Source: Dyella choica (lineage in GTDB: Bacteria > Pseudomonadota > Gammaproteobacteria > Xanthomonadales > Rhodanobacteraceae). Taken from it: a stretch of 64,000 nucleotides of DNA. The DNA is taken from assembly GCF_003977665.1 (NCBI RefSeq), contig NZ_RYYV01000014.1:1-64000 (forward strand). The letters run 5' to 3'. The notes beneath the pieces are model-generated. The model worked only from the letters and a program-made list of their open reading frames with translations, ran no database searches and was not told the DNA's origin. The translations under genes were made by a program, and so were the position numbers. Numbering within the stretch: position 1 is the first letter of the stretch; each line of letters opens with the position of its first letter. Positions 1,674-64,000 of the stretch are shown here, piece after piece.

Positions 1674-4600
1674 TCACCAGACCATGTTGACGCTGCCGCC
1701 CACACCCACGTCGCCGCGCGTGTTGGATGAAGCGGCCAGCTTGAAGATGTAGCGTCCGCTTTCGGTGATGGTGGACAGGCCCACCGCCACGCCGGCTTCG
1801 CCGTGATAGGAACCTATGCCGACGCCGAACGTACTGAGGTTCGGCTGATAGGCCTGGCCCAGGCTGGACATCGCGATGCCCGCGGCGACACCGGCATTGG
1901 CACGCGTGGAGATCGCATTGAGATCGTGATCGATGGCGGCGAATTTCCGGTCGGTGTAGTTCTGCGCCCAGTTCTCCGCCGTCTGGACGCCGGCATTGAC
2001 CTGACCCACGTTGGCCGCGTCGCTCGTTGCGGTGCCGGACGCCACATTGTGGATCTGCGCCGGGGCACCAGCCTGGCCCACGCTGATGCTGCTGTAGTTC
2101 ACCGTGCCGTCGGCGTGCTTGTCGTACTGCACGGAGCCGGCCTGGGCCGACTGCAATTGCGCCACGTTCACCGCATCGGTCGATGCCGTACCAGCGGCCA
2201 CGTTGGTGATCTGCCGCTGATCCGTGGGCGAACCCACCGATACCACGTTCGAACGTCCGCCATCGGTAGAGCCGGCACCCAGCGCCACCGAGTTGTTGCC
2301 CGAAGCGTTGCTGTTGTTGCCTATCGACACGCTATTGCTTCCCGAGGCATTGGCGGATGACCCTGCCGCTACCGCATCCGCACCCGTCGCGGAGGATGCA
2401 TTGCCGGTGGAGTTGGCCACGTAATACTTGATGCCGCCGCTGCTGATGTTGCTGACTGTGCTATTGAGATTGTTGATCGCCGTTGTGTTCGCGCTCACCT
2501 GCTGGTTCGTCGCATACAGCTCCGAACCATTGATCGCATCCGTACTGCTGGAGGTGACCTGCCCGGCCGCCACGTTGGTGATGGTGCGCTCGTTGCCCGC
2601 GCTGCCCACGCTTACCGTACTGGCGGGCGTCGTACCGGCCACCGCATAGGTCGTACCGCCCACCGTCACGCTACTGGTGCTTTTCACCGCCGAGGTGGTC
2701 GACCCGGCACCCAGTGCCACATCGCCCCCATTCGCACCGGCACTGGCGCCGTTGCCGATCGACACCGCATTGCTGGTGCTGGCGGTGGAGACCGGCCCGA
2801 TCGCCACGCTGTCCGTTCCGACCGCCTGCGAATCGGGCAGCGTGGAATTGGCGTGGAAGTACTTGATGCCGCCACCATTGGTGGCGCCGCTGATCTGGTT
2901 CAGCACGCTCTGCACGGAGTTATAAGTGTTGCCGCCATAGCTCAGGCTGGTAGTCACCGCGCCGGTCGTGGAGTTGTAGGTGCTGTTGCCACCGAACGAA
3001 TTGGCGACGCTGTTGCCCAGGTTGGTGGTGGCCGTGCCGAGCGATGCCACCGCCTGATTGGTGGCATACAGCTGGGAGCCGTTGATCGCATCCGTGCTGC
3101 CGCCACTGATGCGTCCCGCTGCCACGTTGGTGATGGTGCGTGGGCTGGTCGAACTGCCCACGCTCACCGTGCTGGTTGGGTTGGTGCCGGCGAAAGCATA
3201 GGTTACGCCGTTGATGGTGGTATTGGGTGTAGCCACCACGGTAGAGGTTACCGAGTTGGCACCCAACGCCACGTCACCTGCCTGCGCGCCAGCGCTGGAG
3301 CCGGCGCCCAAAGCCACATCGGTCGGATTGACGGTGGAGCTACCCGCACCGATCGAAATCGCCTGGATGCCGCTGGCTGTCGAGTTGGTACCCATCGCGA
3401 TCGAATCCTGCAGATTCGTGGTGGCGTTCTCGCCTATCGCCACGCCGCCTGGTGCGTTCTGCTGGACCAGTGCACCGTTGCCGATGCCCACGCCATTGTT
3501 GCCGTTCACCACCGTGCTCGGACCGACCGCAATCGAATCGCTGCCCACCGCCAGCGAATCGGGTGCAGTGGAGTTGGCATGGAAGTACTTGGTGGTGGTG
3601 GTTGCGAACGAGCTCAGTGCACCAGTCAGCTGGCGCACGGTCACCGCATCGTTCGCTTGCGTGCCGTCCGCCACATTGGTGATCTGGCGATACGTGCTTG
3701 CGCTGCCCACTGACACCGCGCCAAGCAAAGTGTGATCTACAGTGTTGTACGGAATAATCGTGCCGCCGATGATACCGCTGGCCGGCGTCAGCGCACGGTT
3801 GGAGACCGATTGCGACCCCAGCGCCACGCTGTCGGTGATCATGGCCTGGGTGTTTTCGCCAAGCGCCGAGGCGTTGCTGGCAGAGGCGGATGCGGCCACC
3901 CCAGCCGCCAACGAGTTGCTGCCGGTCGCACCGTTGTTGCTGTAGTTGGCCTGCTGCGTACCGCCATCGTTGGTGCTGTAGTAATGCGTCAGCTCACTGT
4001 TCACGGAAGTCAGCGAATTGTTGAGACTGGTCACCGCCTGGTTGGTCGCATACAACTCAGAGCCGTTGATCGCATCCGTGCTGTTCTGGCCGATGCGCCC
4101 CGCCGCCACATTGGTGATTGTGCGCTCGTTGCCCCCGCTACCCACACTCACTGTGCTGGCGGGTGTCGCACCGGCAAAGGTGTAGCTGGTGCCATCGAGC
4201 GTAATGCCACCGGTCGTCACCACCGTCGACGTCACCGAACCGGCGCCCAGTGCGATATCGCCCGTGTTGGCGCTGGCCGTAGCGCCATTGCCGATCGAAA
4301 CCGCATTCGCCGTACCCGCGGTGGATACCGGACCGATCGCCACGCTGTTGCTGCCGGTAGCGGAGGAATCGGCCAGCGCTGAATTGGCATGGAAATATTT
4401 GATGCCGCCGCCGCCGTTGACCGAATTGTTGATCTGGTTCAGCACGTTCTGCACGGAGGCGTACGTGTTGCCGCCGTAGTTGAGGCTGGTGGTCACCGCA
4501 CCAGTGCTGCTGTTGTAGGTGCTACCACCCCCCAGGCTGTTGGCCACGCTGTTGCCAAGGTTCGTCACTTGGCTGCCTACCGAGGTAATCGCGCTATTGG

Positions 4601-7600
4601 TGGCGTACAGTTCGCTGCCGTTGATGGCATCCGTGCTGTTCTGGCCGATGCGCCCGGCAGCCACATTGGTGATCGTGCGCTCGCCACCGCCGCTGCCCAC
4701 GCTGACTGTGCTGCCGGGTGTCGTACCTGCAAAGGTGTAGTTGTTGTTGTTGATGGTAGTGCCCGGCGTAGCTACGACCGTAGCCGTGACGGCACCCGAA
4801 CCCAGCGCCACGTCACCCGCATTCACACTGGCGATGGCTCCATTGCCCACTGCAACGCCGTTCGCGACGGAAGCGTTGGCCGCATTGCCTACCGCTGTGG
4901 CGCTGCTGCCCGCAGCCGCTGCACTGACACCCGCCGCCAGTGCGTTCGCCCCGGTTGCACCGGCATTGTTGTAGTTGCTGTCGGTACCTGTAGACGTGCT
5001 GTTGACGCTGTAATCGTGCGTCCTGGCGGCCGTGATGTCGTTCGTCAGCGTATTGGCCACGCTATACAGCTCGGAGCCGTTGATGGCATCGGTGCTGCTG
5101 GAACTGATGCGGCCTGCCGCCACGTTGGTAATGGTGCGCGGGGCGCCAGTGGCACCAACGCTTACCGTGCTCGTCGCATTGGTGCCGGCAAAACCCGAAT
5201 ACGTCACGCCATTGACCGTGGCGGTGGCGGTGTTGACTACCGTCGACGTGGTGGAACCCGAACCCAGCGCTACATCGCCTGCTTGCACAGCCGCCGTTGC
5301 TCCCGCCCCCAGTGCGATCGATTGCGCCTGGCTGGCCGTGGCTGTGTCGCCAAAGGCCAGTGCACTGGCTGCCGTGGCGCTGGATGCATTGCCGAGTGCG
5401 ACAGCCCCCTGCCCGGTGGCATTGTTGGTGTTGCCCAGCGCCACCGCGCCCTGGCCGTTGGCCGTATTGTTTGCACCCACGGCCACTGCGCCATTGCCGG
5501 TAACCGTATTCGGATCACCGATCGCTACCGCGCCGTTACCGTTCGCCGTTTGGTTGGCACCCAGCGCCACCGCGCCGGTACCGCCCAGCACATGCGATTT
5601 GTAACCACCGGCGATCGAACCGACGCCTGCGCCCGCCGCGACCGAGTTCGTATCACCAATGGCAACCGTCGAAGTGGCCAGCGCTTGTGAACCGTTGCCG
5701 ATCGCGGTGGCATCCGTACCCGATGCGCTGGCGCCATTGCCGACCGCCGTGGCATTCACGCCTGCCGCAGCGGCGCTTACGCCCGCAGCCAGCGCATTGG
5801 AACCCGTGGCGCCGGCATTACTGTAGTTCGTATCCGTGCCCGACGACGTGCTGTTGACGCTGTAATCGTGCGTTTGGCTCGCGGTGATGTTCGACTGCAA
5901 GCTGTTCGCCACGCTATACAGCTCAGAACCGTTGATCGCATCCGTGCTGGTTTGGCTGATGCGACCCGCCGCCACATTGGTGAGGGTGCGCGGGGTGCCG
6001 GTTGCGCCGATGCTCACCGTGCTGGTGGCATTGGTGCCGGCAAAACCCGAATACGTCACGCCATTGACCGTGGCGGTGGTGGTGTTCGCCACCGTAGATG
6101 TGGTGGAACCCGAACCCAGCGCCACGTCGCCTGCTTGAACACTTGCCGTTGCGCCGGCACCCAAAGCGATCGCGTTGGTCTGGCTGGCCGTGGCCGTATC
6201 GCCAAGGGCCAGCGCACTAGCTGCCGTGGCGTTGGACGAATTACCCAGGGCTACCGAACCCTGACCGGTGGCATTGTTGGTATTGCCGATGGCGACAGCA
6301 CCGTTACCGTTGGCCGTGTCATTGGCACCTGTTGCTACGGCGCCATTGCCGATGGCGGAATTGGGATCGCCAATCGCTACCGCACCGTTCCCATTGGCGG
6401 TTTGTTGCTGGCCGATCGCCACCGCGCCGGTACCGCCGAGCACCTTGGACTGATAGCCACCCGCAAAGGAACCTGTACCCGCTGCCGCTGCGACCGTATT
6501 GCTGTCGCCGAGGGCCACGGTGGAAGCCGCCAGCGCTTGCGAACTGTTACCAACCGCTACTGCGTTCTGTCCACTTGAAATGGCTGTGCCGCCGACGGCG
6601 ATTGCCCCTGCGCCACTCGCATTGGAGCCATTCATCATGGCAAGCGCAGTCGCGCCGCTTGCAGCAGCTCCCGCACCCAATGCCACGGCATTCGTTGCCG
6701 TGGCGGAAGCCACCGTACCCGCCGCCAGCGAAGACGCACCCGAGGCCGTCACGTCCGTGCCAACACCTACCGCACCCGCCGCGGTAGCACCTGTGCCAGC
6801 GACGGTACGTGCGCCCAGATACACCGTGTTGAGGTTGTTGGCAATGGACTGAAAGCCGATAGCGATGGCATGCGTACCAGAGCTATTGGCTATATAACCT
6901 ACCGATACAGCTGCAGCTCCGCTCCCCACCGTCTGGAAGCCAATGGCCGTGGCATAGTCGGCGTTGGAGGTAATGTCAGTGCCGATGGCAATGGACGATA
7001 TCCCCGTCGATCCAGTGCCCGGCGCGGTACGCGCGCCCAGGTAAATGGAGTTGACGCCGCCAGCGGTGGCTCCCGCACCCACGGCTACACCGTTGTACGC
7101 CGAACCTATGGTGCCGCTGCCCACGGCGACAGAACCCGTCGCTGCAGCGTTGGCAGTCGTACCCATTGCAACGCTGTTGTCCCCAATGGCCTTCGCCACT
7201 GGACCGACAGCAGTCGACGAGTTGCCGCTGGAGACGGAATCTACGCCAATGCTGATGTCAGCATTGCCGGTAGAGGCGACATCCGTACCAATGGCAATCG
7301 CCGACTGCGCTGTCGCCCCGGTGCCCGGTGCACTACGCGCACCCACATAAACGGCATTGGTATTGGAGGCAATGGCTTGATAGCCAAGAGCCGTGGCATT
7401 CGTTCCCGTGCTGTTGGCGGCATAACCAAGTGCAGTGGCGCCCCCTCCCGTGGCCTGGGACGTATAACCCACGCACGTCGTACTGCCGCTATACAAATTG
7501 TAGGGCGCTGCAGCGCAATTCAACGTTTGTGCGTCGGCCCGCTCGCTCCATCCTCCCATCGCCATCAATACCGTCAGCACGCACAGGCTGAGGCAGCGCC

Positions 7601-47640: not shown

Positions 47641-47667
47641 CAACAAAACGCCCGCTTTATGCGGGCG
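47641..47667 (-). terminator. Rho-independent terminator of Rhs toxin-immunity operon
   Basis: On the minus strand CGCCCGC-ATAAA-GCGGGCG forms a 7-bp GC stem followed by TTTTGTTG. It lies 24 bases past the immunity gene stop, which sets the 3' end of the Rhs operon. Confidence 0.88.
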
Positions 47668-47690
47668 CTCTGAAAAGAAAGCATTAGTCG

Positions 47691-47966
47691 CTAGCCATGA
47701 GCCTTGGACCAAACTCGCTCGAAGTCAATTTGATTGATCTCTGCTGGCTCAAACTGTGGATCCGCAGCAATTTCGGCTATCGAAGGCAATGGTTCCCTGC
47801 TTAGTCCAGAACCGCCCTTTGACTCGGATGAACTGGCAAAGCCCATGCGCCCATCCGCATAGACTTCAACTTTCCTAATTTCCCAACCGCTTTGGTCAAT
47901 TTCACTGTACATGACCACCGGCTCAGAGCTTAGCGAATGAATCCACTTCACTTGTATGTACATCAT
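47691..47966 (-). CDS. DUF6881-type putative immunity protein
   Basis: The product has 91 residues, acidic and soluble. Its pattern ([57 protein letters not shown], then IDFERVW) matches the DUF6881 family of small proteins. These are often encoded after polymorphic toxins. The ATG overlaps the stop of the giant Rhs gene (ATGA), so the two are translationally coupled. That is the expected layout for a toxin and its cognate immunity protein. Neutralisation of the HYD1 toxin domain is inference from position. Confidence 0.82.
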
Positions 47967-50900
47967 TGTCCTAGCACCTGGCCACTGTTAGTGATTCGAC
48001 CTGACAGATCGAGTGGAACTTCATTGGGAACAACGTACACGCCCGGCCTACCTTGAATTACGTTTAAGCCGGCAGTGTCGATCTCAATGAAGTTTGTATA
48101 CCGCGCCCCTTGGAATGGGTTGTTTATAAACGCTTTCGAAAGTCGCGCGGGCGACATTGTTCCAGGCGCAATGTCGGAAAGATACTGCCCATTGCCGTAA
48201 CGCACATCATTCGGATTGAGGGCCTTCAGCGACGGATTCAAAGTCTCCGACTCCAAAATCCCCTTCATACCCGCTTCGTTTGTGTAGTGATACAGCTTCG
48301 GTGGGATCCCGCTGTTACGAGCACCAATCTCCGCTGTTGCGTCAACAGCTGTCGTGCCTGGAACCTTACCTTTACCAATTGCATCTCTAGCTGACTGAAC
48401 GACCTCAGATGCCTTCTTTCCTAGCTTTCCAACCGCATCACCTACCGCAGTGGCAAGCTCCGGAGCAACCGCAGTCACAGCCTTCCCCAGTAGCTTAGCA
48501 GCCTTGCCGGCAACTTCTCCACCAACAAGGTCTACCACCCCCTCCTGCACGCTATTCGGCGCAAGAGTCTTGTAGATCGCATATTGAATGCCGTGCCAGA
48601 CAAAAGCGGCATTATTACCATTCCTGAGATCTTCTTGGCCCTGTTGCTCAAGCTCGTCGGTGACGATCTGATTGAATTGCTGGATCTGCGCGTTGGCGTT
48701 CTTCAAAGCTTGGCCGATGCCACCGGAATTTGAGGGTGCACTTGGCACCGGACTCGGCGCGGGAGCAGATGGGCTTGGTGTCGGGTTTGATGGTGCGGGT
48801 GCGGGTGCGGGCGCTGGATTCGGAGCAGGAGCAGGAGCAGGAGCCGGCGCCGGCGCAGGAGCCGGACCCGGAGTTGGTGCAGGCACTCGAGCCGGCGCAG
48901 GGGTTGGAACCGGCGCAGGTGTTGGGACATGTGTAGGTATCGGATATGGAACAGGTACCGGTTCGGGCTCCGGTGTTGGGCTCGGCTCCGGTGTTGGGCT
49001 CGGCTCCGGTGTTGGACTCGGCTCAGGTGTTGGAGCCGGCGCGGGTGTCGGATCTGGCGCAGATACGGGACCCGGCATAGCAATCGGCCCCAGATCGACA
49101 TGGCCGGGATCGGAGAGGCTACCAGGGGTGATGGTCACCGTGATGGTGGGTGGATCTACAGAAATGGTTGGTGTGTTTGGCGTTACGTCAACGGGGTCGA
49201 GAGTATGGGGCTGCGGATCGACCCCCCCTGTGTCTACGGAGCTATTGCCGGCTTGTGAAAGCCCTGTATCTGGGACTGCTTTAGCCCCATAGGCGTAACT
49301 TACATTGCACCCGTTCGTGCTTTCGGTAGCGACGAACCCCTGATAGTTTGGATCCAATTGCGTAGTGTTCTGTCCACTTACGCCATAAGTCGTTACGACA
49401 AACCCATTCGACGACAAGGGGTTTCCATTTAGGTCAACGCCAGGGTTTGGAACAGTGAAGGTGGAGCCACCGGGTTGCGAACACACTGAATTCAAATTAG
49501 GTACCAGGCTTCCGAAATAAGCCGATAGCTGTTGATCACTCCATCCTGCTTGAGGAGCAGTTGTAGCGCCAGTGTTATACGTTAGATTCGATAGCGTATT
49601 CGTAGTGTCCGATACGGTTTGACTGCTGGGGCCGTTTATACCCGCAAACGCATTTCCATCAGAAATTTGCTGATCAAGCAGCGATTGCGCCGCGCTGTCT
49701 CCGATATATGGATCACCGTTGTCAACGTTCCCATCGGTACCACCATCATTCCCGTAAATGCCATAGGCATTTGTCAACATCGTGGATCCGATATTGACAG
49801 TCGTATCAGGAGAAGTCAGGTTGATATTGATATCGGGAGGAGTCACAACGATCGGCGGTAGGGTGACGACCGGATCAGGCGTTGGAGCCGGCGTCGGTAC
49901 CGGTGTAGGTGCCGGCGCAGGCGTCTGTGACGGATCGGTTGACGGATCGGTTGATGGATCGGTTGATGGATCGGTTGATGGATCGGTTGACGGATCGGTT
50001 GATGGATCGGTTGATGGATCGGTTGATGGATCGGTTGATGGATCGGTTGATGGATCGGTTGATGGATCGGTTGATGGATCGGTTGACGGATCGGTTGACG
50101 GACCGGTTGATGGACCCGTTGACGGGTCGGTTGATGGACCCGTTGACGGGTCGGTTGATGGACCCGTTGACGGGTCGGTTGATGGACCCGTTGACGGGTC
50201 GGTTGACGGACCCGTTGACGGATCGGAGGGACTGGCTACGCCGCCGCCCCAGCCGCCGTCACCGCCCCAGCCGCCGCCGCCATCACCGCCACCATCACCG
50301 CCCCAGCCGCCACCGTCACCACCACCACCGCCGTCGCCATCGATCGCCTCGTCCATAGCCATTTCCATCATGGGAGCAGCCATCGCCATCCGCCTGGCGG
50401 ACGCCTGCCGGACCGCAGGTTCCGATGACTTGAAAGCTGGCTCGGGTACACCGTCGATGTGATCGATATTCGCTTCAGACACAGTTTGCGCAGTTTTCGG
50501 CGCGTTCTGTTGCGCCTCCCATGCGGCTTCCTCCTGCTCGATTTGCACTACGGTCTGCGCCAAGGCGGACTGCTGATTGAGCACAGCTTCGATCGACATG
50601 GCAATGATTTGTGCGACCGTTTCAAAAGACGCGGCGCCGGCGCTGAGCGTTTGCAAATACGGTTGATAGGTCGTGCTTGCGTTGGCGCTGGTGGTTATCT
50701 GCGGAATCTTCAGGGACATCCCCGGGGTAAGGGGTGCCGCGGGCGACAAGCCATTAGCCTGCGCCAGAATGTAGTAATAGTTGCTGTCACCATAGATCGC
50801 TTGCGCGAGGGACTGCAGTGTGTCACCCGGTTGCACGGTGTAGCTCTGCGTGCCGAGGGCGCTATTGCTATAGCCACCGGTAGTGCTCAGTACATTGATG

Positions 50901-53900
50901 GCCCCGGTGCTATCCACACTTCCCAGCTCGTTTTCGCTGACGGATTCGTAGACCGTGATGGTCGTGGCACCGCCGCCGATAACGCTCTTTTGCACGAGCT
51001 GTCCGCCACCCGTATAGGCCATGACCTGGGTTTGCGCGGCACCGTTGACCGTACCGCTGCTGCTCGCCAGTTCCCCAAGGTCGTTGTAGGTGTTGTTGGT
51101 GGCAGGACCGGCGGTCGCGGTGCCGGCGATCACGGTCTGCGTGGTGCCGGTCTGCAACAACCCGTTCTGCTTTATGTAGCTGATTTGCGTGCCGATCGTG
51201 CTGTTGGTGGGGTTGCTATTGATAACGGTCGCGATACTGCCCGTTGTGGTGCGATAACCCAGGACATTGCCTGTGGCGTTGTAGCCATAGCCCGGACCTG
51301 CTGCGGCATAGCTGTACTCCGTCGCCAAAAACAAGGCTCCTGCGGTACTGCCGGTGGCGGTGCTTGGCGGAGCCGTATCCTGGTAATTGGCCGCCACGTT
51401 GGTCCCGTATTGGCTAATGAGATTTTGTGCAGCCTCTTCGGCGTATTGACTCTGGTCGATCAATTCGCCATCGGCGTTATACGAATAGAAGGTGTCGCTC
51501 GATACCCAACCTGCGTCGTTGAAAGTCACGAGAGTGTTGTTGCTGGTACCCGCACCCTGGTGGCCTGCGGGGTTATAGAAAATATCGTTGGCCAGGCGTC
51601 CATCCGCGTCATAGTTGCGGCTTTCGTATTGGCTGAAGGTCGTGCCGCCGGCCGCGGTGGTTTGCACCGACGAAAGCTGGCCGAGCACGTTGTAGTAGTT
51701 CTTTTGAATGGTCTGCTGATTGGAACCGTTGAGCGACGTGTATTGGATGACATTGCCGGCCGCGTCGTAGACATTCGCACCGGAGTTGTTGGCGTTGGCA
51801 ATGCTTATCTGGCCATTTTGCAAGCTGCCATCGGCCACGAGCACGCGGCCGTCGGCGTCATAGGTGAACCAATCGGCTTGGATATTGGGTCCGCTGGAAG
51901 GCGCAGGTGTTGAGGCCAGCGTGGCCATTGGTGTGGCGGTGGATGACTCCGCTGTTGACATGGTAGCGACGCGCCCTGTCGCTACGGTGACCGTAACATT
52001 CTGCGCGCAAGACAGGCCATCGACGGGATCCGTGGCCGTGATGGTCACGACGGTATATATCTGGTTGGTATTGGTGCCGAACGGTGGAGTGTAGATAAGG
52101 GCACCCGACCCATTATTAATGCTGAGGCCGGGAACACTATTATTGGTAAGCGAATAGGAAAGCGAACGTCCCATCGGATTTGTGAAGATAACGGGCTGGA
52201 CCGTACTTGATTGGCCAAACGTAAAACGGGCCTGATCCGTCCCGCCCGTGGCTGCCGGCGGCGACGCCGCGGCGACGGTAATGGTAAACGTCGAAGACGC
52301 AAACGGACCGACCGCACTCGTGGCAGTGTAAGTCACCACATACGTACCCGCCGTCGTCGGCGTACCGCTAAAGGTGCGCGTGGAGGCATTGAAGCTTACG
52401 CCTGCCGGTAGGCCGCTTGCGCTATAAGTGATACTTGCGCCGTTTGCATCGGTGGCGGCCGGAGCAACATAAGCATTCATCGCGAGCGTTGCTGTCGCGG
52501 ACTGATTCGCCATGCCACCACTGAATACCGGCGTTACCGCTGGCACGGTGATGTTGAATGTCTGCGAAGCAGACTGTCCTCCCGTAGTTGCCGTCGCGGT
52601 ATAGGTCACCGTCCAGGTGCCGTTCGCAGTCAACGAACCGCTAAACGTGCGCGTCGAGGCATTAAAGCTGATGCCAAAAGGCAGGCCACTGGCACTGTAG
52701 GTCACGCCGTAGCCGTTGGCATCCGTCGCCGCAGGCGCCTGGTAATTCAGACTGGTACCTGGCTGCACGGTTTGCGTGCCGATGCCGCCGGTAAATACCG
52801 GCGCCACATTCGGTACCGTGATGGTGAACGGCACGGTCGTGGGCGTAGCCCCTCCACTGCTCGGTGTGGCGGTATAGCTGAGCGCATAGGTACCACCAGC
52901 AGTGGGCGTACCGCTGAAGGTGCAGGTCGAGGGATTGAAGCTGATACCCGGTGGCAAGGTGCCGCTGACGCTGTAAGTGATGCCATAGCCGTTGGCATCC
53001 GTCGCCGTCGGTGCTTGGTAGCTCCATGCATTACCAGGCTGTGCGGTCTGGTTACTCGGGACGCTGGTGAACACTGGCGACACGGCCGGCACGGACATCG
53101 TAAAAGAGCTGCTGACGGTGTGACCCAGCACATCGGTGGCGGTGACGGTGATAGTGAAGCTGCCTGGAGGCGTGGGTACCGGCGCCATACCGGTGAAAGC
53201 GCCCGAGCTGCTCATGCTCATCCAACTCGGCATGCCGGTGGCAGTAAAGGTCAGCCCCATGCCCAGACTGTCGGCAAAATCACCAGCGACGCTGAAGCCG
53301 ATAGCCACGCCCGGCGCGGTGCTCTGGTTCGCGATCGACGTCACGCTGGGGCCGCTCGTGGTCAATGGGATCGGCGTCGCCGCCACCCCGTTGGCGTCAT
53401 AGGCGCTACTCGTGAACACGGCACGGCGATTACCATCGGCGTCGTAGACGTACACGCTGCGCATCGTCGCAAACGGTGTATCACCGCCGGTGTTCTCGTC
53501 GGTGACCTCCTGCAGCCGGTTATGGCTGTCGTAGCTGACCACGATCTGCGAAATAACCGCACCGCCGCCACCATTCAGGGTGTTGATCGTCTCCAGCGTT
53601 TCATTGCCGTTGGCGTCGTAGCCATACCCATAGGTGGAGGTGACCGTGCTGCTGCCGCTGGTGACGGCCTCGGTCAAGCTGGCGAGCGCGCCATTGGCTT
53701 CGTAGCCGAACGTCAGCGTGGACGTGATGGCACCCGGATTGGGGGTCCCATTCCAGTTGCTGGTTTCGGTGGTCAACAGGCCGGAGTTGGCGTCGTAGGT
53801 GTAGGTGTAGGTCGCCCCGCTTTCGTCCGTATGCGTCTGCACCTGCTTGAAGTAGTTATATGTCCAGCTCTGCGTGTAGCCGTCCGCATCGGTCTGATGA

Positions 53901-56900
53901 ATCAGGTTGCCGTTGACGTCATAGACATAGGCGGTGGTTTCGTTCAGCGGCGTGGTGCTAGTCAGCACACGGTGCTGGCTGTCGTAGGTGTAGGTGATGG
54001 TGTTGCCAAGCGCATCGGTGGACTGCAGGCGGTCGCCGTTGGCGTTCAGCGTGTAGGTGCCCTGCATGACGAGCGTACGTGCCGTGCCGGCGGCGTTGAG
54101 CAGAAAGTAGCCCTGTCCGATGACCTGGCTGAGGTTGTCGTAATTAGTGAAGGTGATGTTGGCCTGGGTGCCGGTGGCGGTTTGCACCGGCGGCGTTTGG
54201 CAGGCGACAGCGCGGCCGAGGGCATCGTAGGCGGTGTAGGTGCGCGCGCCGATATTGTCCTGCGCAATCGTCTTGTTGCCGACGGCGTCATAGGCGTACC
54301 ACGAGGTGTTGCTGTTCTCGTCGGTCACGCCCATCAATTCGCCGGCAACATTGTAATACCACTCTTTCGAGGGGTTGACCCAGTTATAGACGCCCGCCGC
54401 CGAGGTCACCAGAACGCTGGCTTCCGCTTCGACCACGAGCTGGTTCTGGCTGTCGTAGTAGTAGGTGGTGGTGGTGCCGTTGGCGTCGGTCTTGGCGGTG
54501 ACGTTGCCCCAGCGGTCGTAGGTGTAGGTCACCTGCGTACTGGTATCCACACCGCTGGCTGCATTGGTGGCAGGTGTGCGCTGCTGGATCGTATTGCCGC
54601 CCAAGTCCAGCCAGTTATGCATCCATGTCGTGGCCGTACTGCCCGTGATGGTTGACTGGTCAGCGATCAGATGGCCGGCCAGGTCGTAGAAGTAGGTATA
54701 GACCGCGCCTGTTCTGCTATGGGGCGCGCTGACCTGCTGACCTGCCACGTTGTAAGTGTAGGTGGCTTCGTAGCCGACGTTATCGCCCTTGGCGATCACC
54801 TCGCCAAAGGCGTTGTACTTCTTCTGGACATAGTTGTCGTAGGTGCCAACACCACTGCGCTGCACGGCGGTGCTCAACCGTTGGTTGTCGGCATCGTAGG
54901 TATTGGTCGTGGTCGCCATGGTGCTGCCGGTCAACGTATAGCTTTGCGTGAGCACGTTGCCGTTGGCGTCGTAGCTGATGTGGTGCAGCGCCGCCCCATT
55001 GAGATCGTACTGCGCCACCATCCGACCCAGTTGGTCGTAATACGACCATGTCTGCAACGACTGGCCACCAGCGGAAACGTTGGTGCTCAGCGCGTTGCCT
55101 TGCGCATCGTATACGTAGGTCGTGACGGGACTGACGCTGGTATACAGCGCGGCGCTGGTCAGGTCATCGCCTGGCGTGCTTTCCAGGAGGGACTGCCAGT
55201 TGCTCACCAACGCCTGTCGCGCTGGTGCCGTGATGGTCAGCACGCGGCCTAGCGCATCGTAGGTCGTGGTCGTGGTATTGCCGTTGACGGTCTGGCTGGC
55301 GACCTGGTTTTCACCGTTGTAGGTGTAGCTGGTCACGCTGCTGACCAAGGCGTAACCCACGCTGCCGCTTAGCTGGCCGAGCGTACCGCCGCTATAGGTG
55401 TAGCTGCCGGTTTGGGTTTCGCTCGCTACCCGGCCGATCGCGTCGTAGGTGGTGCTGGTGATGCGATCGGCACCGCTGGTTGACGTGGCAGCGCCCGGCA
55501 AGCCGGGCATCGTGCTGGTGCTGATGCCACTGGCATTAATCGCCTGAGCGTATTGCGTGCGGCTAGTAACCTGGCCGAAGGCGTTATAGGCCGTCGAGGT
55601 GACATAGCCCTGCGGGTTGGTGTAACTACCCGTGGGGGTCACCACCATGACCGCGCGATTGAGTGCGTCGTAGTAGGTGTACGTGGTCGCCCAGATCGCC
55701 GGTGTGGTGGTGGTACCGGAGGTATACGCAGCTTGCACCAGCTGCGCCACGCTGGAGACGTTGCCGTAGGCATCATAGGTATAAGCGGTGGTCGGCGAGC
55801 CGGTGCTATCGTTGCCTGCGAGCGACCCCATCGCCAGCGTATAGGCGACCGTCGGCAGCACCACCTGCGTCTTCTGATTGAGCTGATCGTAGGTCGTGGT
55901 GGTGCTGCGATCGTTGCTCGATGTGACCAGCCCCTGGCCCACCTGGGTCACGCTCAGCGGCTGCCCTGCACTCCAGCCGGTGATCGCGCTGGTGTTGAGC
56001 GCGGTGGCGTAGCGCATGGTGGTGACGACGTTGCCAAACGCATCGTAGGTGTATGCCGTCACGTAGCCATTGCCATCGACGGCGTAAGCCAGCTTGCCAT
56101 CGTTATACGTGCGATAGGTGTAGTTGCCGTTGGCATCCTTGCTCACCACCGCTTCGCCCAGGGCGTTGTAGGTGGTCGTGCTGACGTGGGTGAGCGCATC
56201 CGTCACCTGCACCTGATGCCCCATCGCATCGTACGCATAGCTCGTGCTGCTGACGGTGGTGATCGCACTCGCGCTCGCGCCGTAGCCCTGGCTGGTGCTG
56301 GTGACGCCGCCGAAGGCGTCGTATGTGTTCGTGGTGTAGAGGTACTGGCTGGCGGCGGTCTGGAACTGGCCGTTGACGGTGCTGTAGCTGCCGACCGTGA
56401 CGGGTGGGCTCTGGGTCTGGATCAGCCGCCCGGCACCGTCGTGGACATAATTCCAGATAGCGCCATCGCGGTTGCTGGCGCTGGTCTTGAGGTCGCGACC
56501 GTCGTAGACGTAGCTGGCGTTGATGCCGAGCGCGTCGCCGGTCGCGGTGATGTCGCCGCGTGAGTTGTAGTACGTGGTGCTGATGCGTGCACCGCTGGTG
56601 CCGGCCGCGCTGACGGCCGCCGCGATCGTGCTGGCATTGATCGTGCCCGGCAGCGTGATCGGATTGGCGTATTGCTGGGTTTCGATCAGGCGACCGGCGC
56701 CGTCGTAACTGTTCTGCGTGACGTTACCCAACGCATCGATGCTGTACAGCGCGCGGTTGTCGGCGTCGTAAACCATGCTGGTGGTGTGCTTGGCGGTGAA
56801 GCTTGCCAACGCCGTGGCCACGCTGGCCGTGGTGAGCTGGGCACTCAGCGAGGACGTGGTGCTCAAGCTCAACGTGCTGCCGTAGACGGTCTGGCTGGTG

Positions 56901-59900
56901 AGATTGCCGTTGGCGTCGTAGGCGTAGCCCGTGACCAGACCAACGCTACCGCTGTTGTTCTGCTGCACCGTGAAGGCGTGACGTCCGGCGGCGTCATACA
57001 ACGACAACGTTGCCTCGGCCGTCGCATCTGTATTGCCGTTGGTGCTGATCAGACCCGCCATCAAGGGTTGTGCGGTGCCTGCGGCCAGCGGCACCCACGC
57101 GTTCTGGGTGGTGATGCTCGATCCGCTGAGGGCGTTGGCATAGGCCAGGGATTCGATCACCCGTCCGGCCGCGTCGTAGCGGGTTTCGGTGACGTAACCG
57201 ACGGGATCCATCGTATAGCGCAAGCGGCCGGCGGCGTCATAGATCTGGTAGTTCACCTGATCGCTGCCGCTGAGGCTGACGAGGCTGGCGATCTGCGACG
57301 GCGTCGGTGAGGTACCAAGGGTGGCCAGCTGGGCCGCAGTCAGCGCCGTGGCATCGGCGCGCGTGGCCACGACGCGACCGCCGGCGTCATAGTAGGTTTG
57401 CACCACCGCGCCGGCGGCATTGACCGTGAATTGCACACGGCCCGCGTTGTCGTAGCTGGTGTACGTGGCGCGATCGTTCGCGCTGCTCGTGATCAGCGCC
57501 GCGACCTGCGCGACCGTCGGCGTGCTGCCGAGACCCGCCAACTGGGAGCTGGTCAGGGCCGTGGCATAGGCGATGGTTTTGGTGACGCGGCCAGCGGCAT
57601 CGTACACGGACTGCGTGACATCGCCCGCCCCATCGATGCCGTAGACCACCTGGCCGTCGGCGTTATAAGCGGTGGTGCTGACGAGGTCGCTACTGCTGGC
57701 AGTCAGCACGCCGGCCACGGTTGCGGCCGTGGCCACCGGATTGAAGCTGGTGAGGGTCCAGGCGTTGACCGACGGCTGAATGGCATATGCGCGGGTCTGC
57801 GTCACCTGCCCGGCGGCGTTGTAGGTGTACTGCGTCGTGTTTAGACCGACACCGGTCAGCTCGTACGCCAACTGGCCATCGGCGTTGTACACGCGCTGGT
57901 GATAGGGATCGGTATTGCTGGCCGTGATGTCGGCGCTGACCGCCGCGACGGTGGGCGTGGTGCCCAGCGCGCTCAGCTGACTGGCCGTGAGCAGGGTGAG
58001 GTAGGTGCGCGTGGTGGTGACACGCCCGTCGGCGTCGTACCAGGTTTGCGTGACGGCGCCGGTCGGATCGATGGTGTAGATCCGCTCGTTGGCTTCGTCG
58101 TAGACGTAGCGCGTGACATTTCCGTTGGCGTCGGTCTTCGTGACCAGGTTGTCGTTCGCGTCGTAGGCGTAGCTGGTGGTGAGATTGAGTGTGCCCGGCG
58201 CGACGATGGTCTGGCTCAGGCGCTCCCGGTTGTCGTAGACGTATTGGGTGGTCGTCGCGGCGCTGGTGCCAGCACCCTCGGTCACCGTGAGCGTATTGCC
58301 CGCGCCGTCGTACGTGTACGTGGTGGTGAGCGCCAGCCCGGTCGCATCGACCACCTTGCTCAGCACCTGGCCGTCGGCGTCATAGCTGTAGGTGGTCACC
58401 GCGCCCATCGGGTCAGTGACACGTAGCTCGCGGCCTTGGCCGTCGTAACTGTACGTCGTCACCAGGTTAGGACCGACCGTCTGCGTCAACACGCGGCCGC
58501 TCGCGTCGTAAGTCATCGTGACAATGTCGCCGGTCGCGTCAGTGGTACTAGTCAGCTCGCCGACTACATTGACTTGCCGGTGGCTGACGTTGCCCAGCGC
58601 ATCGGTGATGATGCGAAGGTGGCCCCCGGTATCATAGGTGTACGTGGTCGTGTTGCCGCCGCCATCGGTCACGCTCACCGTGTCGCCGTAGGCATCCTTC
58701 ACCGTGGTGGTGGTGATGCCGCCGGGCGTGGTCAGCGTGGCGGTATGCGTGGTGACGTTGTAGCTGTATTTGGTGACATTGCCGAGTGCATCGGTCTCGG
58801 TCAGCACCTGGCCGAAGGCGTCGTAGGTGGTTTGCGTGCTGCGTGCCGTGCCCAGCACGGTCTGGCTGGTCGTGACCTGGCGACCCAGGTTGTCGTAGGT
58901 ATAGGTGACGGTGTTGCCGTTGCCATCAGTGTGGCGGGTCACGCGGCCGAACGCGTCGTAGGTAGTGGAGGTCGTCCGCGCGACAGATGATCCGACCCCG
59001 TCGGTCTCGCTGAGCTGTTCACCGCGAGCATCGTAGGCATAGGTGGTGGTCGTGCTGTTGCTGGCGAAGGGCGCGCTACCCGGCTGGCTCAGTTGCTGCT
59101 GCACCTGGGTCACGTCGCCAAAGGCGTCGTAGCTGCGCGCCGTTTGATAGCCATTTCCGTCGGTGACGGTTGCTACCTGGCCGTCGAGCGTGAATTGGGT
59201 GGTGGTCACCGCATTGGCATCGCCGCTCACCGCACTCAATGCGGCGACCGCCGTGGCAACCTGGCTGACGGTCGCCCCGATGGGATTGATCGACGTTCCG
59301 CTGTTGGTGCCGGCCGTGATGAGGGTAAGCTGACCAGCGTAGGTCGTGGTGCTGGTCACTTCGCCGAAGGCGTCGTAGACGTAGGCGGTGACATCTCCTA
59401 ATACGTTGCACGTGCTGCCATTGGGTTGACCCTGGATCGTGTAAAGCACCTTGCCATTGGCGTCGTAATAGGACCATGTGCTGTTACCGAGCGCATCGGT
59501 GGCTTCCACCTGCTGGCCGAGCGCGTTGTAAACGTAGGTAGTCGTCGCACTCGCGACATCGGTCGACGTCAGCGTTTCCCCGAACGCATCATAAGTCGCA
59601 CTGGTCGAACGTCCACTGCCCTGCCCGTTGGCCGGCACGACCGAGGTGCCAAACACCTGGCCGAAACTGTTGTACATGTACGTGGTGACGGTGCCATCCG
59701 CGGCCGTGCGGCTCATGACCTGGCCAGCTGCGTTGGTCGTGACTGTGCTTTGTTCGTTGATGGTATTGGTGCCGAGCAGGCCTACCAGCCCAGTGACGCT
59801 CTCGCTACCGGTCAGCGCCGCAAGTTGGGTGCCGCTCAACGCGGTAGCGTAGCGAGTGGTCGTGGTGGTATCGGTGGTATCGCCGTAGGCGGTCGTGCTG

Positions 59901-62900
59901 AGGTAGCCATCGGCATCGATTGTCGCGACGACTCGCCCGGTCCCGTCGTTGTACATACGGGTGGTCTGATCCTGCGCGCCGGCGGTGAGGTCCGCCTGCA
60001 CCGCGGCGAGCGTGGGAGTAGCGCCCAGGCTGCTGAGCTGCGCCGCGGTCAGTGCCGTTGCATAAGCCGTCTGCCGGACGATTTCACTCGCGTCGTTGTA
60101 CGTAGTGACCGTGACATAGCCCTGCGCATCGATGGTCGCGGCGGCGCGTCCGTCGGCGTCATAGACCGTCAGCGTAGTGCGGTTGGTGGCATTACTGCTG
60201 AGATCGGCCTGCAGCGCCGCGAGGGTCGGCTGGCTGCCCAGCGCCGTGCGCTGCGCACCGGTCAACGGGGTCGCGACCTGTGTGGTGGACACTACGTGAC
60301 CGGCGCCGTCATACAGCGTGGTCGTAACGTTGTTGGCGGGATCGATCGTTGCCACCACCCTGCCGGCAGCGTTGTAAAGCGTAGTCGTGGTGCGGTCGTT
60401 GGCGCTTTTCGCCGGCACCTGCAGGCTGGCCGGATAGTTGGCAGTGAGCGCACCGCCACTGATCCAGTTCGCCGTTGCGACCGGCGTCGCGTACTGCGTG
60501 CGCTGGACAACTTGCCCGTTGGCATCATAGGTGTACGCGATGACGTAGCCATCGCCATCGATGGTGCCCGTTACCCGGCCATCAGCATCGTAAAAGGTGT
60601 AGCTGACGTTGCCGGCCGCATCGATCGCGGCGATCGCTTGACGGTCAGCGTTGTAGACCGCGGTGGTGATGCGGTCGTTGCTGCTGGTAGCGACGTAAGG
60701 GGCGACCGCCGCTGCGGAGGCAGTGGGGCTCAGGCTGCTGGTGGCGAGCGCTGTCGCATACTGACGCGTCTGCACCACCTGTCCGGCCGCGTTATAAGTG
60801 AACTGCGTGACGCTAGATGTCAAGCCACTCAGGGCGTAAATCAATTGACCATCGGCGTTATACGCATGTTGCGTATAGCTATCGATGTTGCTCGTGGCGA
60901 CATAAACGCTGACGCTGTTGATCGTTGGCGTGTTACCCAGCGCACTCAACTTGCTGGCGGTAAGCATAGTCGCGTAGGTCCGCGTGGCGGTGACCCGCCC
61001 ATCTGCGTCGTACCAGGTTTGCGTGACTGCGCCAGCCGGGTCGATAGTGTAGATCAGCTCGTTGGCTTCATCGTAGACATAGCGCGTGACGTTGCCGTTG
61101 GCGTCGGTCTTGGTGACCAGGTTGTCGTTGGCGTCGTAGGTGTAACTAGTGGTGAGATTGAGCGTGCCCGGGGCGACGATGGCCTGGCTCAAGCGTTCGC
61201 GATTGTCGTAGACGTATTGCGTGGTCGTCGCCGCGCTGGTGCCGGCACCCGTGGTTACGGTGAGCGTCTTGCCGACACCGTCATACGTGTAGGTGGTCGC
61301 GAGCGCCAGCCCGGTCGCATCGACCACTTTGCTCAGCACCTGGCCGTTGGCGTCATAGCTGTAGGCGATCACCACGCCCATCGGATCGGTGACACGCAGC
61401 TGACGGCCCTGGCCGTCGTAGCTGTACGTCGTCACCCGATTGAGCCCACTCGGATCGACCGTCTGCGTCAGCACGCGGCCGCTCGCGTCGTAGGTCATCG
61501 TGACCACGCGGCCGCTGGCGTCGGTGGTCTGGATCAGCTCGCCGTCAGCGTCGACTTGGCGGTGGCTGACGTTGCCCAGCGCATCGGTGGCGGTAAGCAG
61601 GCGGCCATCGCCATCATAGGTATAGGTGGTGGTGTTGCCGCCGCCGTCGGTCACGCTCACGGTGTCGCCGTAGGCGTCCTTCACCGTCGTGGTGGTGATA
61701 CCGCCGGGGGTGGTCACCGTCGCGGTGTGCGTCGTGACGTTGTAGCTGAAGGTCGTGGTGTTGCCGAGCGCATCGGTCTCGGTCAGCACCTGGCCGAAGG
61801 CGTCGTACGTGGTCTGCGTGCTGCGCGCCGTGCCCTGCACGGTCTGGCTGGTCGTGACCTGGCGACCCAGGTTGTCGTAGGTATAGGTGATGGTGTTGCC
61901 ATTGCCGTCGGTGCGATGGGTCACGCGGCCGAAGGCATCGTAGGTGGCGGAGGTCGTGCGCGCGACAGACGACCCAACGCCCTCGGTGGTGCTGAGCTGT
62001 TCGCCGCGGTTGTCGTAGGCATAGGTGGTGGTCGTGCTGTTGCTGGCTGTGAGCGCACTGCCCGGCTGGCTCAGCTGCTGTTGCACCTGCGCCACATCGC
62101 CGAAGGCGTCATAGCTGCGGACTGATTGATAGCCGTTGCCGTCGGTGACGGTCGCCACCTGGCCGTCGGCGGTGTACGTGGTGGTCGTCACCGCAGTGGG
62201 GGCACCGTTGATGGTGCTGAGTGCAGCAATGGCGGCTGCCACTTGAGCGGCGGTCGCGCCCGTGGGATTTATCGACGTCCCGCTGTTGCTGCCGGTGGTG
62301 ATGAGCGTGAGCGACGCGGCGTAAGTGGTGGTGCTGGTCACTTCACCGAAGGCGCTGTAGGCGTAAGCGGTAACGTTACCCGTTGCGTTACGCGTCGCGC
62401 CGCTTGGCTGACCCTGGATGGTGTACAGGACCTTGCCGTCAGCATCGTAGGTAGTCCATGTGCTGTTGCCCAGCGCATCGGTGGCCTCCACGGGTTGGCC
62501 GAGCGCGTTGTACACGTAGGTAGTCGTCGCACTCGCCCCATCGGTCGACGTCAACGTCTCACCGAACGCGTCGTAGGTGGCGCTCGTGGTGCGGGCCGTG
62601 CCCTGCCCACTGACCGGCGTAACCGTGGTGCTGAGCACCTGGCCGACGCTGTTGTAGGTATAGGTCGTGACCGTACCATCCACGGCCGTGCGGCTGGTGA
62701 TCTGGCCGTCGCCGTTGGTGGTGACGTGACTGGATTCGTTCGCGGTGTTGCTGCCGAGCAGGGCCACCAGCGCGGTCACGCTCTCGCTGCCGGTCAGCGC
62801 ACCGAGCTGGGCGCCGGTCAACGCGGTGGCGTAGCGCGTGGTCGTGGTGGTGTCGGCGGTTTCGTCGTAAGCGGTAGTGGTGAGGTAGCCATCCGCATCG

Positions 62901-64000
62901 ATCGTGGCCACGACACGCCCGGCCCCGTCGACGGTGGTGCGCGTCGTCTGGTCCTGCGCGCTGGTGGTGAGGTCCGCCTGCACGGCGGCGAGCGTGGGGG
63001 TGTTGCCCAGGCTGCTGAGCTGCGTCGCGGTCAACGCGGTGGCATAGGCGGTTTGACGGACGATCGCGCCAGCATCGCTATACACGGTGACCGTGACATA
63101 GCCGAGTGCGTCGATCGTGGCGACGGCCCGCCCGTCGGCGTCGTCCACCGTCAGCGTCGTGCGGTTGTTGGCGTTGCTGCTGAGGTCGGCCTGCAGCGCA
63201 GCGATGGTCGGATGACTGCCCAGCGTCGTGCGCTGCGCAGCGGTCAGGGGTGTTGCGTATTGCGTGGTGGCCAGCACGTGGCCGGTGCCATCGTAGGTGG
63301 TGGTAGTGACGTTGTTGGCCGGATCGATGGTTGCGACGACTTGGCCGGCCGCGTTGTAGATCGTGGTCGTGGTCCGATCGCTGCTGCCAGGCGTCAACAA
63401 GCCCTGCAAGGTGACTACCGTGGGCGTGGCAGCCAAGGTCGCCAACTGCTTGGCGGTCAGTGGTGTGCCATATTGCACCGTACTAATGACATGTCCGTCG
63501 GCGTCACGCGTATAGCCAGTGACGTTGCCGTCTGCATCCACGGAATAGGCCAACTCATTGTCGGCGTTATATAGCGTGTAGCTGGTTTGGCCATTGGGAT
63601 CAGTAACGCTTGTGGGCCGGCCGACGCTGTCATATCCATAAGTCGTGTTACGCCCAGGATTGGTGCTGGCAAGGACGTCTTGCAAAACAGTAGGTGTGGG
63701 CGCCTCCTCCAGCAAGGCCATCTGCGCGGCCGTCAGCGGTGTCTTGTAAAGCAATGGACTGCCGCCGGGCTGATTGACAGTGACGAACTCGCCAGTGACC
63801 GTACTCACCGTGCCGTCGGCGTTGGTGAAGTAGTGCGTCTGATAGGCCACCGTGGCATTGACATTGCCATATGCGTCGTAGATGGTCAGGCTCGTTTGAT
63901 CAGCGGCGCTAGGAGTGACCAGTGCTTGCAGCTGTGGCAAGGTAGGAACACCCAGCGATTCCGCCTGCAGCGGGGTCAAGGGTGTCGCATAGTTGGTGAT
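47963..64000 (-). CDS. Giant YD-repeat/Rhs polymorphic toxin with HYD1 ADP-ribosyltransferase tip (5' end outside window)
   Basis: At least 5345 residues; the frame is open through the right edge, and the apparent TTG start at 63979 lies inside the repeats. Residue numbers here count from that TTG. About 1-3530 are YD repeats ([15 protein letters not shown]) mixed with YATxLTxxQL modules. About 3540-4010 hold five Ig-like units of the He_PIG/cadherin type ([15 protein letters not shown]). A short second YD segment and one LysM domain ([18 protein letters not shown], about 4376-4423) follow, then Gly-rich, DPST-repeat and Pro-rich linkers. A helical segment (about 5080-5200) precedes the C-terminal toxin (5221-5338). 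The toxin carries [16 protein letters not shown] and [13 protein letters not shown], the signature of Tox-ART-HYD1 ADP-ribosyltransferases. No canonical DPxGL self-cleavage motif was seen. Export route is not visible. Confidence 0.9.
49925..50230 (-). repeat. 12-bp tandem repeat encoding (D/G)PST
   Basis: About 25 consecutive 12-bp units (plus-strand wording GGATCGGTTGAT or GGACCCGTTGAT) encode DPST or GPST in a row. The first part of the tract alternates DPST and GPST; the rest is DPST only. Near-perfect DNA identity indicates slippage-driven expansion. It forms a flexible acidic linker between the glycine-rich and proline-rich parts of the Rhs protein. Confidence 0.92.
57900..63900 (-). repeat. 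About 2.97-kb tandem duplication inside Rhs gene
   Basis: GTCGTACCAGGTTTGCGTGA occurs at 58034 and again at 61007 (2973 bp apart). GCGCATCGGTGGC near 59491 recurs near 62473 (2982 bp). The order of modules between these points is the same in both copies, so a block of about 990 residues has been duplicated in tandem. Copies differ at scattered positions, so the event is not brand new. Exact ends are approximate. Confidence 0.85.

Follow-up and report, generated by a model that had tools for sequence, protein, structure and literature searches.

The pairing of the toxin domain Tox-ART-HYD1 (here HYD1), an ADP-ribosyltransferase (ART), with the immunity protein Imm-My6CBD was described by Zhang et al. 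in 2012 (PMC3482391), who also proposed that the animal myosin VI cargo-binding domain was derived from bacterial immunity proteins. Candidate effectors of the type VI secretion system (T6SS) in Salmonella include RhsA-Tox-ART-HYD1 proteins (PMC11669294). The locus described here lies in a 64,000 nucleotide stretch of Dyella choica (GCF_003977665.1, contig NZ_RYYV01000014.1, positions 1 to 64,000), referred to as the window, and consists of a gene for a giant Rhs protein with a C-terminal HYD1 tip, followed by a small gene of the Pfam family DUF6881. It resembles the system of Zhang et al. in toxin Pfam family, Rhs context, predicted immunity fold and conserved residues. Like the Salmonella effectors, it has an Rhs protein with a HYD1 tip, but these are PAAR-RhsA proteins or RhsA proteins encoded in a T6SS island, whereas Pfam scans found neither PAAR in the window protein nor a T6SS island in the 17 neighbouring ORFs covered. 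The HYD1 tip is very probably the toxin part of a polymorphic Rhs protein and DUF6881 its specific immunity protein, which probably binds and blocks the ART.

The HYD1 tip and the DUF6881 gene

The giant Rhs gene, its tip, the DUF6881 gene and a downstream hairpin are all located on the minus strand.

47963..48340, minus strand: C-terminal tip of the giant Rhs protein with the HYD1 ADP-ribosyltransferase domain (translation; PF15633, E 4.5e-31)
47993..48295, minus strand: Tox-ART-HYD1 domain proper (match 1-97 of 97), with conserved H (LYHYT), R (VRYG), Y (GNGQYLS) and D (PLD)
47963..47966, minus strand: ATGA overlap, read at the junction, with the ATG of DUF6881 within the toxin stop
47691..47966, minus strand: DUF6881 gene, 91 amino acids, predicted immunity protein with a myosin VI cargo-binding fold
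47644..47672, minus strand: terminator-like hairpin of 12 pairs with a T-rich tail, beginning 19 bases beyond the DUF6881 stop

The first-pass annotation, made from the sequence alone, had named a HYD1 tip on a giant Rhs protein and DUF6881 as the next gene, and both assignments were confirmed by profile searches. PF15633 (Tox-ART-HYD1) matches the tip over its full length with 107.8 bits (curated cut-off 25), and PF21812 (DUF6881) matches the 91 amino acid protein over 1-89 of 90 positions with E 9.6e-36 and 122.7 bits (curated cut-off 27). Each profile has one match in the genome at E 0.001. The LYHYT and [13 protein letters not shown] motifs that had been reported for the tip are present in its translation. 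Residues H4, R33, Y39 and D97 of the window HYD1 occupy invariant or nearly invariant alignment columns (the D97 column lacks D in 4 of 30 rows, read by eye) and agree with the published HYD1 set H, [RK], [FY], [DE] (PMC3482391), the assignment to columns being that of this analysis. The predicted structure of the domain has a model confidence (pLDDT) of 91.9.

The overlap of the two genes by ATGA was found as described and suggests translational coupling of toxin and DUF6881; an identical 4-base overlap is present in 9 of 31 distinct HYD1-DUF6881 pairs, the window's pair counted. Where a dedicated terminator had been proposed for the pair, a hairpin with a T-rich tail exists (47672-47644) and is the sole match in the 1.1 kb scanned, but shuffled sequence averaged 1.1 matches; because shuffles give as many hairpins, the terminator call is based on position and not on the scan.

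The predicted fold of DUF6881 matches the myosin VI cargo-binding domain in fold comparison. Residues E25, R34, F78/F88 and W92 are invariant in an alignment of 15 DUF6881 sequences and correspond to the conserved E, R, F and W of Imm-My6CBD. In its predicted structure, the DUF6881 protein adopts the Imm-My6CBD fold. Sequence profiles linked DUF6881 to myosin VI only through a FEEIW-like patch, and the fold comparison alone is persuasive. Sequence searches of solved structures with the DUF6881 protein, the tip and the HYD1 profile gave no convincing relative.

Association of HYD1 with DUF6881

Four sets of genomes were searched for HYD1: 250 from the order and 398 from the phylum (two overlapping sets), and 293 each from the orders to which a Hahella and a Streptomyces genome belong. 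After exclusion of G000, G638, G639 and G647, which had been reached via the window or via DUF6881, 18 genomes with a match remained. In all ten genomes with strong matches (E 1e-27 or better) the next gene downstream, in the same orientation, is DUF6881, while none of the eight with weak matches (E 1e-20 to 2e-4) has DUF6881 in the stretch examined. The weak matches look, by sequence, like other subfamilies. Three of them, divergent HYD1 tips of the Streptomyces group (L109, L110, L111), are followed by genes of 155-166 amino acids that look alike by eye and are not DUF6881; these probably represent another immunity family. DUF6881 as the partner of all HYD1 toxins was ruled out by the eight weak matches and these three other genes.

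HYD1 was found in nine plasmid records, and in all eight that were examined the next gene is DUF6881 or a divergent DUF6881 (six read in the records, two judged by coordinates). Four of the nine share one match with 57.1% identity, and both that were opened are IncC plasmids. In these, from Enterobacter and Klebsiella (L073, L074, around 4001-4638), the pair is situated among small same-strand genes near a beta-lactamase gene. Two Citrobacter plasmid records have the same 57.1% match, and for three of these four plasmids the incomplete gene table of PLSDB lacks a HYD1 annotation. Among 50,697 phage records neither the HYD1 nor the DUF6881 protein was matched. Viral contigs contained seven DUF6881 loci and four HYD1 loci; the four sit on contigs among the seven, and DUF6881 is present in 4/4. 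Viral loci L081 and L085 appear identical to genome loci L014 and L062 (same profile matches) and were not counted as independent. Two tandem DUF6881-type genes follow a single HYD1 in L077 (3330-4001) and L083 (833-1472).

A scan of species genomes that started from DUF6881 gave 57 loci; it used a single peptide pattern and is therefore a biased sample. Window duplicates (L001, L010, L114) and loci fetched twice were removed before counting. The adjoining HYD1 is full length in 13 loci, a remnant in 12 and unrecognised in 32. One of the latter, L046, starts with the last residues of a HYD1 cut by the contig end, which brings the linked loci to 26/57 and the unlinked ones to 31/57, L024 among the unlinked being a locus that cannot be judged. 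In the order sample HYD1 is adjacent in two of eight genomes with DUF6881. DUF6881 is thus often an orphan gene. A role in one housekeeping pathway was not supported: around the 32 loci without HYD1, 47 of 88 selected neighbours were scanned and gave 37 Pfam families, and among the 25 families listed three had two members and the others one. In a Rhizobium plasmid (L080, 2408-4130) DUF6881 lies in an array with HEAT, Imm53 and Imm8 genes.

Beside HYD1 remnants DUF6881 is full length in 10 of 12 loci. The converse, a full-length HYD1 without DUF6881, was not seen among the loci of the pair comparison, many of which had been fetched through DUF6881, so that the HYD1-first sample is the fair test. 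From these sequences, toxins seem to have been lost and antidotes retained, the asymmetry expected of an antidote, although some remnants may be assembly errors. Distances between HYD1 domains correlate with those between their DUF6881 partners (r 0.60, 23 pairs, near-duplicates removed); none of 9999 permutations was as high, the largest giving 0.35. Shared inheritance may contribute to this correlation.

The giant Rhs protein and its surroundings

48350..48724, minus strand: linker before the tip, found in 3 of 233 genomes (its own, G218 and G1293)
49364..63979, minus strand, extending beyond the window end as far as roughly contig position 67354: Rhs/YD-repeat body (PF05593, E 2e-194, 31 stretches; N-terminal part PF05593 and DUF6531)
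50702..50842, minus strand: LysM domain (Pfam scan, residues 4380-4426)

An open reading frame (ORF) of 5338 amino acids listed from TTG 63979 is truncated by the window end. The complete frame, with 6497 open codons, reaches from contig position 67456 down to 47963. Translation probably starts at the ATG at contig position 67354, which gives 6463 amino acids. Pfam domains of the protein are Rhs repeats, one LysM, one Ig-like and an N-terminal DUF6531. One relative with this linker bears a disrupted tip (L116). The other (L115) bears a tip without Pfam match and a different overlapping downstream gene of 119 amino acids, which provides, as far as sequence can tell, one clear case of one carrier with different tips and downstream genes.

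One flank of the giant gene is flagellar (about 67600-77400, L069), with a FliA-like sigma factor nearest and genes for FliP, FliN, FlgE, FliI and FliF, and the other flank carries exopolysaccharide genes. A single T6SS sheath gene is present in the genome, on a different contig.

Freestanding HYD1-DUF6881-macrodomain operons

Outside the window, five loci (L045, L051, L052, L058, L099) consist of a short free HYD1 gene (111-131 amino acids by our own ORF calls), then DUF6881, then a third gene of 157-164 amino acids. A stretch resembling a ribosome-binding site precedes, by eye, the free HYD1 start in all four loci whose upstream sequence was viewed, and the free gene is the only HYD1 in the four genomes searched whole (L045, L051, L052, L058). 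A protein search with one free HYD1 returned 61 relatives, 46 of them of 105-115 amino acids, in a search that admits similar lengths only.

The third gene encodes a macrodomain. Pfam Macro matched with E 1.3e-5 to 0.011 (four of five below the family cut-off), PADLOC DarG matched all four of the proteins compared with it (E 3e-9 to 1e-13), and a profile search matched the solved structures 2fg1 (BT1257, E 1e-66) and 5e3b (SCO6735, E 1e-58). SCO6735 is reported to cleave thymidine-linked ADP-ribose, for which Gln85 is required (PMC9411070), and to act on uracil too (PMC13036486). All five freestanding macrodomains share an invariant Gln in an IGQ motif; position counting in the alignment equates this Gln with Gln85. 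A macrodomain gene follows DUF6881 in 5/5 freestanding loci and in L046 and L060, as opposed to one of the 26 loci with HYD1 in a longer frame (276 amino acids or more), among which L019 has 307 bases downstream only. The one is a Nocardia HYD1-tip locus, L062, where a different, clear macrodomain gene (6343-6765, Pfam E 1e-20) comes after DUF6881; it is apparently the same locus as viral L085. SCO6735-type macrodomains are found also without HYD1 or DUF6881 (L118).

A search of the literature gave no paper uniting HYD1 and a macrodomain in one system; one match described YarT-YbiA (PMC11125620), which is the nearest precedent, so that the three-gene operon is a variant on a known theme. It is plausible, though short of probable, that HYD1, DUF6881 and the SCO6735-type macrodomain constitute a self-contained ADP-ribosylation module of toxin, binding antidote and eraser, and that the Rhs tip is the delivered form of the same toxin core, with thymine or uracil bases of nucleic acid as the site of modification. 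The target is proposed because relatives of the eraser act on thymidine and uracil linkages. The YarT-YbiA case cautions that HYD1-clade toxins need not share one target.

Proposed function and alternatives

Observed were the two domains and their overlapping genes, the almost exclusive pairing of core HYD1 domains with DUF6881, the survival of DUF6881 next to toxin remnants, and its predicted fold. We infer that the tip would be toxic, transferring ADP-ribose, with NAD as donor, to a component of a competing cell that is most likely nucleic acid. DUF6881 would probably come from a shared mRNA through translational coupling, and it most likely binds the ART domain and blocks its activity, so that the producer and its kin would survive. 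The first-pass annotation had proposed DUF6881 as the specific antidote; linkage, overlap, survival beside remnants, correlated divergence and fold all point the same way.

Some observations weigh against this reading or against contact-dependent delivery. By the literal count DUF6881 is mostly unlinked, which had been named beforehand as an argument against the pair; the converse test, for HYD1 without DUF6881, argues the opposite. The freestanding operons have no delivery domain and are toxin-antitoxin-like. Finally, Pfam scans of the whole giant protein found no PAAR, VgrG or similar loading domain as would mark a T6SS effector, and no T6SS gene was found in the 17 neighbouring ORFs scanned, which are part of the neighbours. 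The latter two would suit a module that acts inside the cell, as a toxin-antitoxin or in phage defence, and became joined to an Rhs protein, with no role in contact-dependent killing. This is unlikely, since the window toxin forms the end of a protein about 6463 amino acids long and the relative with the same linker has another tip and another overlapping gene, as exchangeable delivered toxins should.

That DUF6881 confers immunity enzymatically or by shielding the substrate, for example by erasing or averting the modification, and not through binding of the toxin, would have parallels in enzymatic ART antidotes, namely YbiA against the HYD1-clade YarT (PMC11125620) and PARG against RhsP2 (PMC11833690). 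It is nevertheless improbable, as DUF6881 is predicted to fold like a cargo-binding domain and the freestanding operons already hold a separate macrodomain, beside which a second eraser would be redundant. Toxin remnants are common beside DUF6881 (12/57 loci), as would suit a degenerate, inactive tip with DUF6881 as a leftover, but the window domain is full length at its high score, retains H, R, Y and D and ends a frame open throughout; degeneration is very improbable here.

Comparison with known systems

DUF6881 is likened to Imm-My6CBD by predicted fold, residues and HYD1 neighbourhood. The name DUF6881 was met neither in the passages of PMC3482391 nor in the literature searched. The system YarT-YbiA of myxobacteria (PMC11125620) comprises a stand-alone HYD1-clade ART of 114 amino acids, which is toxic in E. 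coli, and an antidote that gives rescue there; the window ART, unlike YarT, is an Rhs tip. YbiA belongs to the NADAR enzymes and acts on guanine, and no rescue from YarT was obtained with DarG, whereas the freestanding relatives have DUF6881 and an SCO6735-type macrodomain instead. Two further systems were compared by description. Tre23 of Photorhabdus is an Rhs C-terminal ART that has been likened to YarT and is said to modify RNA (via PMC11125620). RhsP2-RhsI2 (PMC11833690) is an Rhs-delivered ART with an occluding immunity protein, against which a macrodomain enzyme, PARG, protects too; the freestanding macrodomain matches ALC1-like chains and not PARG.

In DarTG, as in the freestanding relatives, an ART is paired with a macrodomain, but here the ART is HYD1 by Pfam and DUF6881 sits between the two. 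CmdTAC (PMC11618068), a phage-defence system, likewise has three genes centred on an H-Y type ART; a likeness to the freestanding operon was rejected, as its third gene encodes a SecB-like chaperone and not a macrodomain.

The analysis assigns a likely function to DUF6881, a Pfam family of unknown function, and the tie of its predicted fold to myosin VI connects the family to the 2012 origin proposal (PMC3482391). The freestanding three-gene operon points to a thymine or uracil target for a toxin clade with unsettled chemistry. Compared with the described systems, the window pair itself is of known type; what the analysis adds is the connection between DUF6881 and the fold of myosin VI, together with the freestanding operon of three genes.
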